From: an uncultured Verrucomicrobia subdivision 3 bacterium
GTDB lineage: Bacteria; Verrucomicrobiota; Verrucomicrobiia; Limisphaerales; UBA11358
Assembly: GCA_903922735.1 (NCBI GenBank)
Contig: CAIXUZ010000001.1
Coordinates: 1-64,000, forward strand
Length of the DNA: 64,000 nt
Direction: 5' to 3'
Shown here one piece after another: positions 1 through 59,143 of this stretch (the stretch's first letter is position 1; each line of letters starts with the position of its first letter). Both the position numbers and the translations under genes were made by a program. Below the pieces are notes generated by a model, which had not been told where the DNA came from, did not search any database, and saw only the letters and a program-made list of their open reading frames with translations.

Positions 1-80
1 GAGTCACTTTTGGTTATTTTCATGGTGAAAAAAGGTAAAAAGCCGGTTTTTTGCCGTAATTGTAGGATTTTCCGCCGTTT

Positions 81-414
81 GAGGCGCGCCCCCAGCGGTT
101 TTTGCGCACCGAAAAATGCCTCGGGGCGCACCCCAATGGCCTGGGGCGACGGGAAAACCGTCCGGGGCAGAGGGAAAATGGCTGGGGGCAGACCCCGAAT
201 CCCGCGGGCACGACCCCAGCGGCATGGGGCGCACCCCGAATGTTGCGGGGCGCGCCCCCAGGCAAAAGGGCTGCGCCCCGCGGCGCGTTTGGGTGCGGAA
301 AAGCCGCGCGGGGCGCGCCCCATGTCATTTTTCCGCGCCGGAAAACCATCCGGGGCGGACGAAAACTCTGATGCCGGACACCCCAAAGGTAAAGTCGCAC
401 GCCCCGGACGGCGG
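81..414. repeat. Degenerate 21-bp tandem array, GC-rich
   Basis: About sixteen consecutive units of 20-21 bp can be laid end to end here. Many units begin with GGGGCGC.CCCC or a variant (for example at 123, 185, 226, 247 and 310), followed by a more variable, often A-rich half. Because 21 is a multiple of three, every frame gives heptad-like peptides (GAPR... on the minus strand). No frame has a convincing start, ribosome site or family match, so I treat the array as non-coding. The whole 1-596 stretch contains no gene I can support. The function is unknown; it could be a structured RNA, a protein-binding array or a dispersed repeat. Confidence 0.75.
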
Positions 415-28078: not shown

Positions 28079-30496
28079 TCATTTTCCGCCGGAAATTATT
28101 TTGTCGCGGGCGGCAATATATTCCTTCTCAGTCATGTTGCCGGCGGTGTAACGGTTGAGCAGCGCGTCGAGCTTTTCCTGCTGGGCGGGGCTGGCGGCCT
28201 TCGTGCCGGCGGTCACTGCGGGGGGAACATTGGTTGGCATTGCCGGTTTTCCTGCTTGTGGCGCGGAACCGAAATTCGACGGTTGATTGGTTTCATCTTC
28301 CATCTTGATATTGAAAAAGCCATCGGCCGGACCGCCGGCTTTGGCCTTCTTCAGCTCTTTTTTCCGCTGGGCGTCAATGAGCTTGCGTTCATAAGCGGCA
28401 TCCTCGGCGGCCGCGCCGGAAATGCCGGGCAGGCGCTGGGATTCTTTGATGGTGTTTTTGGCGGCGATTTCCGGCGTCGCCAGAACCGTGGGGCGGATGA
28501 GCACAATCAACTCCTGCCGGTCCTTGGAGTCGCTGCGCTTTTTGAACAGGTTGCCCAGCACGGGAATGTCCGAGAGGAACGGCACGCCGGACTGGGTGTG
28601 GGATTTGTCCGATTTGATGAACCCGCCGAGCATGACGGTGTCGCGATCGCGAACGGAAATTTCGGCGTTTAGCGTGCGTTTGATGGTGTTGGGCACCTTG
28701 CCCACGCTGGCGATGTCGGTGTAGCCGTTGAGGTCGTCAATTTGCTGCTGGATTTGCATGACCACCAGCCCGTCCGGGTTGATGAAGGGCGTCACATCCA
28801 GTTCCACGCCGACGGACAACTGCGAATAGGAAACCCCGTTGCCGCCGTAGCCGCCATAGGAATTGCCGGTGACATAGGGCACGGTGTCGCCGACGAAGAA
28901 CTGTGCCGCCTTGGCCTGCGAGGTCTGGATGCGCGGCCGCTGGATGATGCTGGCGTTGTTGTCGCTTTGTGCCGCCGTCACCGCCACATCCCAGTTCGGC
29001 CCGATGTTGGCAAAATAACTGGCGCCGCCGGGCAGCGAGTTGTTAAAGGCCGAGGAGCTGTTTGATCCCAGGCCGGAGGAGAACGTGGACAAGCCGTTGG
29101 TGCTGATCGTTTGTACAAAATTGGCGAACGTGTTTCCATTATTCATGCCGCCGCCGCCGATGACCTTGCCGTTTTGCGCGGCGTTCTGCGCGGCCGAAAT
29201 TCCGAAATCAAACGTGCTGCCGATTTTCACGTTCATGATGACCGCTTCGATCAGCACCTGCGCCAGCGGCACGTCCAGCTTGGCGATGATTTCCTTGATC
29301 GCCTCCATGTCTTTGCGGGTGGCATAGATGAGCAGCGTGCTGCTGCTCAAATTCGGAATGATTTTGGTCTGGCCAAACAAGACGATCTGATCCTGGCCAT
29401 TGCCGCCGGCACCGCCGGTGCCACCGGCGCGATTGATGATATTATTCAACCGCGATGTAAACGAGCTGCCGGTGGTCGGCGTGCCGTTGGGATTGGCCGC
29501 GCCGGTGGTGCCCATGGTGCGGGTCTGGCCGCCATAGGCGCTGCTGCCCACTCCCATGCCGCCGGCGCCCCCCACGCTCCCCACGCCGCCCATGCTGCTG
29601 ATGCCGCCGCCCATGCCGCCACCCACGGAACTGGTGCGATTGGCCAGGCCGCTGATCGGGGTGCTGCTGGCCGAACTGCCGATGCTGACCGTCGCCCCGC
29701 CGCCGCTGCCGCCAAGGCTGTTCAGGGCCGAGGCGATTTCATCCACTTTCGCATAGCGGATCGGGATGACTTCCGAGATGAATTCCGCCGGGATGCTCAC
29801 GTCCACCTGTTCGATCATCTCCAGCATCCGCTTCACGTTTTCCGCGTAGTCGCGCAGGACGAGAATGCCGTTGCCGTCAATGGACAGAATGGAATTCGGC
29901 AGCTTCGCGAAGGGCGTGATGACCGGCATCATTTCGGTGGGCTTGACGTATTTCAACTGCACGATGTGGGTGATGTAGGAGCCGAGGCTCGGCAGATTGG
30001 TCGAGCCGCTGCGGTCCACTTCGCCGCCGGCGGCGCCCGCCTCGCCGGAGGGGACGACCTTCACAAATTTGTCGCCGATGTTGACCAGGGAAATGCCGTT
30101 CAACGCCAGCACCGCCTGCAACGCCTGGATGGTCTCCGTCTTGGTCAACGGCGTCTGCGTCTCCAGCACGATTTTCGCATCCGGCAGATTCGCCCGCAGC
30201 AGGGTCCGCCCCACCAATTGCGCGTAGATTTTCAAAACCTGGTTCAAATCCACGCCCTGAAAATTAATCTGGCCGGCGGGAAGCACATCTTCCGGTTCCG
30301 CCGCCACGAGCGCCTTCGCCCCGGCCGCAGCGGTGGCGGCCGCTGCGGCAGCCCCCGGCGGCTGCCCCTGCGGCGCAGCCGTGCCCAAGCGCGGCGTTCG
30401 GCGGACGGCGGGCGGCGCGGGAAAGGCGGGCGGCGATTGCGCCCAAAGTTCGAGGCCGGTCAGGACCAGCAGCAATGCGGTGAGGATGGTTTTCAT
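28079..30496 (-). CDS. Type II/IV secretin (GspD/PilQ-like)
   Basis: 805 residues with a signal peptide (MKTILTALLLVLTGLELWAQ). N0 (INFQGVDLNQVLKIYAQLVG), N1 and N2 are recognisable, then a Gly/Ser-rich insert (about 265-350), N3 (PNLSSSTLLIYATRKDME), and the secretin core with GVELDVTPFI and VPFLSDIPVLGNLF. The last 30 residues (DALLNRYTAGNMTEKEYIAA) resemble a SHOCT motif, an odd tail for a secretin. It should form the outer-membrane channel of a type II secretion or pilus machine together with the genes upstream on the same strand, which it overlaps by ATGA. Confidence 0.92.
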   Translation of the reverse strand: MKTILTALLLVLTGLELWAQSPPAFPAPPAVRRTPRLGTAAPQGQPPGAAAAAATAAAGAKALVAAEPEDVLPAGQINFQGVDLNQVLKIYAQLVGRTLLRANLPDAKIVLETQTPLTKTETIQALQAVLALNGISLVNIGDKFVKVVPSGEAGAAGGEVDRSGSTNLPSLGSYITHIVQLKYVKPTEMMPVITPFAKLPNSILSIDGNGILVLRDYAENVKRMLEMIEQVDVSIPAEFISEVIPIRYAKVDEIASALNSLGGSGGGATVSIGSSASSTPISGLANRTSSVGGGMGGGISSMGGVGSVGGAGGMGVGSSAYGGQTRTMGTTGAANPNGTPTTGSSFTSRLNNIINRAGGTGGAGGNGQDQIVLFGQTKIIPNLSSSTLLIYATRKDMEAIKEIIAKLDVPLAQVLIEAVIMNVKIGSTFDFGISAAQNAAQNGKVIGGGGMNNGNTFANFVQTISTNGLSTFSSGLGSNSSSAFNNSLPGGASYFANIGPNWDVAVTAAQSDNNASIIQRPRIQTSQAKAAQFFVGDTVPYVTGNSYGGYGGNGVSYSQLSVGVELDVTPFINPDGLVVMQIQQQIDDLNGYTDIASVGKVPNTIKRTLNAEISVRDRDTVMLGGFIKSDKSHTQSGVPFLSDIPVLGNLFKKRSDSKDRQELIVLIRPTVLATPEIAAKNTIKESQRLPGISGAAAEDAAYERKLIDAQRKKELKKAKAGGPADGFFNIKMEDETNQPSNFGSAPQAGKPAMPTNVPPAVTAGTKAASPAQQEKLDALLNRYTAGNMTEKEYIAARDKIISGGK

Positions 30497-32486: not shown

Positions 32487-32557
32487 GATTTACGATTGAC
32501 GATGGACAGGCGATTCCGGCCGGCGACGTGTAAATCGTAAATCGTAAATCGTAAATG
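32487..32557. repeat. Inverted stutter-word element (GTAAATC) between gspE and pilM-like genes
   Basis: The word CGTAAAT occurs four times in tandem at 32531-32556, preceded about 30 bp earlier by inverted forms (ATTTACGATT, GACGAT). The two halves can pair. The element fills most of the only intergenic gap of the secretion cluster. Confidence 0.65.
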
Positions 32558-44697: not shown

Positions 44698-44800
44698 ATT
44701 TTCAACATCGAACATTCAACATTCAACGCTCAACATCCAAGTACTCCCTCGCGGAAATCATTGGGTGTTCGATGTTGAATGTTGAGCGTTGAATGTTTCC
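44697..44800. repeat. Inverted stutter-word element (CATTCAA) between cimA and valS
   Basis: The left half repeats CATTCAA/CGCTCAA words; a 25-bp spacer follows; the right half repeats the inverted words (GTTGAATGTTGAGCGTTGAA). The halves match over about 30 bp and can form a long hairpin. It fills nearly the whole cimA-valS gap and contains no T-run, so it is not an ordinary terminator. Confidence 0.75.
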
Positions 44801-49436: not shown

Positions 49437-50101
49437 GCCTTCAGCTTCGCCAGCGCCTTGGCGCGGTGGCTCAATTTGTTTTTTACGTCTTCGCCCAGTT
49501 CGGCGAACGACTGGGTGAAACCGTCCGGTACAAACAGCGGATCGTAGCCAAACCCGCCCTGTCCGCGCGGTGAAGATCGAATCTGCCCTTCGCAAGCGCC
49601 GTCGAATAACTGCGCTTCAAGTTTATCTGCAAAACAAACGGGTGAGGCGTACTTTGTATTTCTCTCCGGGATGGGTGCCAGCGCAATCACGCAGCGGAAG
49701 CGCGCGGAACGCTTTTCCAGCGGCACCTCTTTCAGCAAACGGAGGAGCTTGGTGTTGTTGTCGGTGTCGTGGGCGTTTTCACTTTTGTCCAGCGCGGCGA
49801 AGCGCGCGGAATGCACGCCGGGCGCGCCGTTCAGCGCATCCACTTCCAGGCCGGAATCGTCGGCGAGCACGAAGTTGGGAGTTGGCTGTTGGCTGTTGGC
49901 TGTTGATTTTTCCCCCGCCCGCCACTTCGCCAGTTCCACGGCCTTCTTCGTCGCATTGCCGGCAAACGTGTCGGCATCTTCGATCACGGCGGGCGCGTCG
50001 GGAAATTCCTTGAGCGTGAGGCAGCGGAATTGCGCGCCGAGGATGGCTTGAATTTCACCGACCTTGTGGGCGTTGCGCGTGGCGATGAGCAGCGTCGTCA
50101 T
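49412..50101 (-). CDS. rdgB: Non-canonical purine NTP pyrophosphatase (RdgB/HAM1)
   Basis: 229 residues; hydrolyses dITP, XTP and similar to clean the nucleotide pool. LIATRNAHKVGEIQAIL, FAGNATKKA, FVLADDSGLEVDALNG, GQGGFGYDPLF and SHRAKAL are all present. The loop before LADDSG has an insert, KSTANSQQPTP, made by the GGCTGTT stutter repeat (49874-49908); it is in frame and at a position where family lengths vary. Confidence 0.9.
   Translation of the reverse strand: MTTLLIATRNAHKVGEIQAILGAQFRCLTLKEFPDAPAVIEDADTFAGNATKKAVELAKWRAGEKSTANSQQPTPNFVLADDSGLEVDALNGAPGVHSARFAALDKSENAHDTDNNTKLLRLLKEVPLEKRSARFRCVIALAPIPERNTKYASPVCFADKLEAQLFDGACEGQIRSSPRGQGGFGYDPLFVPDGFTQSFAELGEDVKNKLSHRAKALAKLKAYFNKLPT
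49874..49908. repeat. In-frame stutter-word insertion (GGCTGTT) in rdgB
   Basis: GTTGGGAGTTGGCTGTTGGC and further GGCTGTT words: the 7-bp word appears three times in tandem. The reading frame is maintained (peptide STANSQQPT). The same principle, with different words, is seen in glyS and leuS. Confidence 0.65.
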
Positions 50102-53684: not shown

Positions 53685-53692
53685 ATGTTTCA

Positions 53693-53720
53693 AGTTTTCA
53701 GTTTTCAGTTTTCAGTTTTG
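53693..53720. repeat. Stutter-word repeat (TTTTCAG), ahcY side
   Basis: AGTTTTC is repeated three to four times in tandem. On the minus strand the repeat codes the last residues (KLKTEN) and the stop of the four-helix-bundle gene and then reaches to within 8 bp of the ahcY start. The same word appears in inverted pairs on the other side of that gene (54068-54134). Confidence 0.75.

Positions 53721-56389: not shown

Positions 56390-59143
<2,754 letters not shown>

Follow-up and report, generated by a model that had tools for sequence, protein, structure and literature searches.

Several described kinds of repeat come close to the DNA analysed here. The F plasmid sopC region consists of 43-bp repeats with inverted repeats, and in eukaryotic satellite DNA the monomer length is conserved and the letters are turned over in concert. 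PARCELs, which encode a 25-residue protein repeat, are tandem, dyad-symmetric and sequence-variable and have spread between and within genomes (PMC2996958), and REP/BIME and GTAG palindromes have been reported in Opitutus terrae, one of the Verrucomicrobia (PMC3733652). The array at the start of our window (the whole stretch of 64,000 nucleotides that was analysed) belongs to a dispersed class of Verrucomicrobiota arrays that conserves geometry, not sequence, and these arrays typically form the upstream module of a family of FN3-protein genes, here called gene A.

The window array lies at 76..408 on the minus strand, where dynamic segmentation recovered 16 units, 13 of 21 bp and three of 20 bp. 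This bears out an earlier, sequence-only reading of the locus, which had described units of 20–21 bp with a palindromic and a variable half, in phase over 330 bp. The autocorrelation peak expected at 21 bp is also present: across 81-414, lags 42, 21 and 62 gave z=6.3, z=5.1 and z=4.6, respectively, against a maximum over lags of <3.7 in 99% of 1000 dinucleotide shuffles. The proposed GGGGCGC.CCCC core was found in part of the units only, as GGGGYGYGCCCC-type units alternate or mix with units that have TTTTCC-type cores. A TRF run on the window did not report the array because its units are too divergent. Gene-proximal to it are A/T tracts (AAAA, AAAAAA and TTTTT at 36..75, minus strand, placed from the sequence and from flank statistics over 64 loci) and the start of the gene-A leader ORF at 1..23, minus strand (ATG AAA ATA ACC AAA AGT GAC TC, MKITKSD..). 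This ORF, with the array just upstream, is the partner of the array, and not the prepilin-like neighbour put forward earlier; the latter gene (646-1500) encodes an N_methyl/DUF1559 protein, does not lie beside the other arrays examined and is incidental. A long imperfect inverted repeat at 488-575 (GCGGTCGCGCGAAG...CTTCGCGCGACCGC) has related, REP-like copies elsewhere in the genome.

The window begins at a contig end (G000:C1), and its segment 7..430 has a 98% identical duplicate at the end of C40, which accounts for the contig break. Further copies in the same genome are found at C57 (84%) and, diverged, at C29, and contigs C46 and C66 terminate inside a window-type array. On the contigs with copies, the array (minus strand) runs into an ORF of the form M(K/R)I..DS.DPEM.FDNPNL.W..PSYLLEPGDPG. 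At C57 and C29 this leader extends into gene A (~290 aa), followed by a gene B; C46 and C66 have the leader only, the rest of gene A being absent. The leader in the window is cut by the contig end and continues on C46, where gene A is a remnant. The pairs C46-C1 and C66-C40 look like two assembly-graph forks broken at an 850-bp duplication; the gene that the duplicated array of the window precedes has decayed. An antitoxin/RelE-like pair, recognized by eye (L047:5409-5890), adjoins the duplicated array segment on C66; a deletion breakpoint is marked by its truncation in the C46 copy.

A genome-wide search with the consensus of the window array retrieved only the duplicates and one diverged relative, because that consensus is specific to this locus and its duplicates. 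The unit sequence therefore fails as the family signature it had been taken for: each locus has its own unit, and the signature is the geometry. The other arrays that had been anticipated do exist, both in the same genome and in related genomes. Scanning 861 kb of the window's own genome yielded 15 arrays of period 21, or ~80 per genome by extrapolation, and none at periods 16-20 and 22-29; five period-14 arrays in the same 861 kb are heptamer repeats, a different class. Most of the arrays in this genome are solo, that is, intergenic and beside ordinary genes, without A or B, and two solo arrays (L024 and L176) retain a gene-B remnant. One dyad-symmetric 21-bp array lies in frame within alaS (L029:402-785 and L188:11743-12079; G000:C49 ~21.7-22.1 kb) and codes for a GSTDKPIGSADNPAG-like insertion in alanyl-tRNA synthetase. 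Ten arrays were found in 181 kb of G018, which carries 14 copies of gene A, and three in 257 kb of four further A-bearing genomes; seven A-less genomes (844 kb) gave none, heptamer repeats and codon-bias matches having been set aside by inspection. Given the uneven sampling, this co-occurrence of arrays with gene A across genomes is suggestive. The scan was controlled by same-codon-phase comparison, a weaker control having given false matches from codon bias; matches at 29510-29678 of the window, within a secretin gene, and in the high-GC genome G048 were false for this reason. A secretin-like gene of the window (28079-30496, minus strand) has a Gly-rich stretch, coding low complexity that mimics a period-18/21 repeat. 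Heptamer (7/14-bp) repeats also occur in the window (32530-32556, 44701-44740, 49881-49905, 53688-53719 and 57345-57376); they resemble cyanobacterial heptanucleotide STRR repeats and are a separate class from the 21-bp arrays.

The association with gene A extends across the phylum. In the window's own genome, the A genes on C11, C72 and C53 and a leader remnant on C60 are likewise preceded by 21/42-bp arrays, whose units are unrelated (ATTGGAGGATTTGGTGGCGGG, CATCTGGTGGCACCGGTGGCG, ATCCGCGGATT-type and CTGCCCGGGCAG-type). A profile of A found relatives in 20/59 near genomes and 28/196 genomes of the order, where 64 of the 73 testable loci (near-full-length A with enough upstream DNA) have an array ≤650 bp upstream by a strict detector, compared with random-window rates of 1.2% in the own genome and 3.3% in G018. 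Among the nine misses are C57 and C29, where weaker arrays can be seen by eye (z >5), and four apparently true absences (L139, L140, L143 and L144). For other orders and classes of the phylum, gene A was found in 6/288 genomes (the own genome included), again with arrays upstream (for example TTTCCAATTGGAAA, GGGAGACGTCTCCC and the near-perfect TCCGTCAATCTGGCGTTGCCC); L274 and the fragment L281 have A without an upstream array. Two Verrucomicrobia subdivision 3 MAG contigs likewise carry arrays. Since arrays in G018 are found in front of a weak-fn3 protein and a third family as well, they are not tied to A alone. The two small-protein families directly 3' of G018 arrays (L207:3706-4449 and L202:699-1349, one of them weak fn3) have multicopy relatives in the genus. 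A Rhodocyclales match (L148) was false. By eye, putative REP-associated/IS200-type Y1 transposase ORFs were seen beside two array loci (L057:1855-2454 and L056:2527-3099).

The AlphaFold model of protein A (pLDDT 85) has two long helices, forming a helical hairpin, and a beta domain that matches FN3 domains; with a pTM of 0.46, the arrangement of these domains is uncertain. Searches of protein A against Pfam, NCBIfam, PHROG, PADLOC and PDB sequences gave no match of note, gene B had no family match, and neither protein matched a Rep in Pfam/NCBIfam. Gene A was not found in plasmids and had no match in phages or IMG/VR, where the viral-contig pattern scan used alignment A1, alignment A3 being too diverse. 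In gene B paralogs (L055:2293-2748, L046:207-662 and L049:1505-1960) the N-terminal, coiled-coil-like part is variable and the rest near-identical, a pattern that suggests recent gene conversion. Gene A was rejected as a reader of the arrays: it is FN3-like, and L116 and L117 share a 90% identical A gene yet have different arrays.

What the arrays have in common is their register. Pooled identity was 0.61, 0.66, 0.60, 0.64 and 0.56 at lags 21, 42, 63, 84 and 147, and ~0.30 one base off register, so there is no phase drift over 8 units; even multiples of 21 score above odd multiples, an alternation at 42. In column entropy the first harmonic is the dominant one, corresponding to one conserved and one variable half. 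Dyad symmetry exceeded that of column-permuted arrays (mean z +2.1 over 59 arrays; >2 in 58%), and arrays without it were L058/C11, L081, L100 and L118. A/T tracts of at least 4 cover 0.137 of the gene-proximal flank, 0.072 of the distal flank and 0.045 of background, and gene-proximal tracts are paired at distances of 10, 20, 30 and 40 bp (period 9.9, resultant 0.67 vs background 0.14). Phased A-tracts are known to bend DNA. Four arrays have a common conserved flank and differing units. From locus to locus, then, the period of 21, the alternation at 42, the dyad tendency and the 10-bp-phased flanking A/T tracts recur and the letters differ. The proposal that selection acts on spacing is strengthened by the restriction of own-genome arrays to period 21 and by their steady phase, which suggest that spacing rather than sequence is under selection.

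Homologous arrays show how the units change. Over 240-725 bp, the alignments of eight usable pairs contain 0-2 gap columns, or in one case exactly 21, and substitutions per site amount to 0.15 in conserved columns vs 0.35 in variable ones. Pooled column conservation correlates negatively with change (rho -0.22, p=1e-18); five pairs show this strongly, in C1/L046 it falls short of significance, and L125/L128 and L068/L092 do not show it. The pattern speaks for constraint on the unit core rather than free turnover, although gene conversion could contribute. At 15-39% array divergence there is almost no gain or loss of units, and unit numbers are mostly equal. At the paralogous loci L116/L117, the 5' flanks are 86% and the genes 90% identical, but only 7/21 consensus columns agree, GCCAGC..GCTGGC dyads having been replaced array-wide by other dyads; each of the two consensus units has dyad symmetry (7/8 and 8/8). 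As in L070/L091, the arrays are far more different than their flanks, and we conclude from these two pairs that the units of an array can change together, and more quickly than the DNA around them.

We tentatively favour, at somewhat less than an even chance, the reading that the array is a DNA-architectural or cis-regulatory platform. Dyads every two helical turns, together with an adjoining bent segment, would place matching sites on the same side of the helix, on which a putative dimeric or polymerising DNA-binding protein could assemble and wrap the region, and the wrapped region would control the downstream gene. If unequal exchange is slow and shifts arrays by multiples of 21 bp, and purifying selection preserves the dyad core, the units of an array may all drift together towards a sequence peculiar to that array. 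This mechanism, which we infer, is consistent with the period-21 excess, the 64/73 A loci, the absence of drift, the dyads and phased tracts, the lack of an RNA-strand signal (see below), the slower conserved columns and the switch of the L116/L117 arrays with dyads kept. Against it stand the dyad-less arrays, the mostly solo arrays by ordinary genes, the one inside alaS, the possible share of gene conversion in column conservation, and compensatory dyad changes that derive mostly from one pair. It is also hard to imagine one reader protein for ~80 unit sequences, unless it reads shape and not letters.

The main rival, possible but on balance unlikely, is that the arrays are neutral minisatellites shaped by slippage, unequal exchange and quasi-palindrome correction, and lie near gene A through co-copying. 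Solo arrays in ordinary intergenic places and in alaS would be expected on this account, as would the copying of array and gene as a block and the excess of array over flank difference in L116/L117 and L070/L091; a mutational route to perfect palindromes is known. However, the period stays at 21 for unrelated sequences across the phylum, conserved columns change less than variable ones, units are hardly gained or lost at the divergence given above, and the A-less relatives sampled have no arrays. If this rival were true, the arrays would be a variant within known repeat kinds.

Homology between unlinked copies spans the start of the array to the end of gene A and then stops (L065/L127, L058/L078, L125/L132 and L068/L092). 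Such blocks would suit a mobile unit of which the array is the 5' end and gene A the remainder, with the repeats read by a putative recombinase and solo arrays left as remnants, like solo LTRs; the gene-B remnants at L024 and L176, the 98% duplicate of the window array and the many copies per genome point the same way. We think this improbable, as no recombinase or transposase was recognised within the array and A unit, most solo arrays lack an A or B remnant and the letters differ between copies.

A transcribed 5' leader whose units fold as hairpins controlling gene A would account for the frequent dyad symmetry and for arrays that end 15-60 bp from the start codon. It is nevertheless very improbable: G.T:A.C mismatches at dyads numbered 314:436 in 47 arrays and 38:28 between homologs, so that neither arrays nor homologs show the wobble asymmetry (G.U-type over A.C-type) of a sense-strand RNA; some arrays have no dyads, and none matched the Rfam 15 covariance models at gathering score. 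We would give still less weight to a coding role, in which the units would specify heptapeptide repeats, either by themselves or as a fusion with gene A. In its favour are a unit length divisible by 3, the in-frame position of the array in alaS and an open frame from the C53 array into gene A, but over -360..-60 the frame of A is open at 31/71 loci vs 24/71 and 24/71 for the other frames, pooled column entropy has no codon-period signal, and no sense frame stays open in 14% of arrays. Given the lack of an RNA-strand signal and of a preferred frame, we would seek any function in the DNA itself. A CRISPR- or TIGR-like guide-RNA array is scarcely credible, for despite the AT-rich, leader-like flank and the division of units into conserved and variable halves, the variable part is only ~10 nt, the unit differs per locus, and the neighbours are FN3 genes with no PADLOC match.

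A bolder reading, which we regard as distinctly doubtful, is a sequence-free address system in which each array has its own dyad word, the same in all its units and distinct from those of the other arrays in the genome. If true, selection would act on mutual recognition, and dozens of FN3-gene loci would be handled separately by shape or pairing. More generally, if spacing is selected, the arrays offer a natural test bed for how bacteria read the shape and phase of DNA, and for the study of concerted evolution in prokaryotes, and they are a cis-element common to a multicopy FN3 family of unassigned role across the phylum. Because geometry and not sequence is conserved, profile searches cannot see the class, and it could easily be mistaken for scattered low-complexity ORFs.

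The earlier statement that no named family fits stands: Rfam and Pfam gave no match, PADLOC had none for A, B and two other downstream proteins, and literature searches found nothing on this repeat class. None of the known families accommodates the arrays, and what is new is the class of repeat, not a proven function. CRISPR loci have identical repeats, unique spacers and cas genes nearby, whereas the arrays are contiguous similar units without spacers; nor does gene A have matches in phages, as it would in a phage element. REP/BIME elements are likewise dispersed, palindromic and intergenic, but REPs keep a family sequence and a 5' tag, which the strictly tandem arrays lack. PARCELs share with the arrays their tandem, dyad-symmetric, sequence-variable and dispersed character between and within genomes; the arrays, in contrast, are mostly non-coding, with a 21-bp unit and no favoured frame. 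Plasmid iterons and sopC-type centromeres resemble the arrays in that their direct repeats lie about two or four helical turns apart and contain dyads, their neighbour is AT-rich and their letters are locus-specific. The two-turn phased direct repeats of iterons are thus found here without an adjacent rep gene: the arrays are chromosomal, number dozens per genome and have an FN3 neighbour, with no Rep/ParB gene recognised alongside. With bacterial minisatellites/VNTRs the arrays share tandem units of ~20 bp, within the 10-60 bp range, and unit-sized indels; unlike them, they hold the period at 21 across loci with unrelated letters, are conserved in front of one gene family and have slower-evolving conserved columns. 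Eukaryotic satellites offer an analogy only, in their conserved length and concerted letter turnover, the arrays being bacterial, 21 bp and gene-associated. Most bacterial repeat classes are defined and found by sequence, whereas the conserved property of these arrays is helical geometry.
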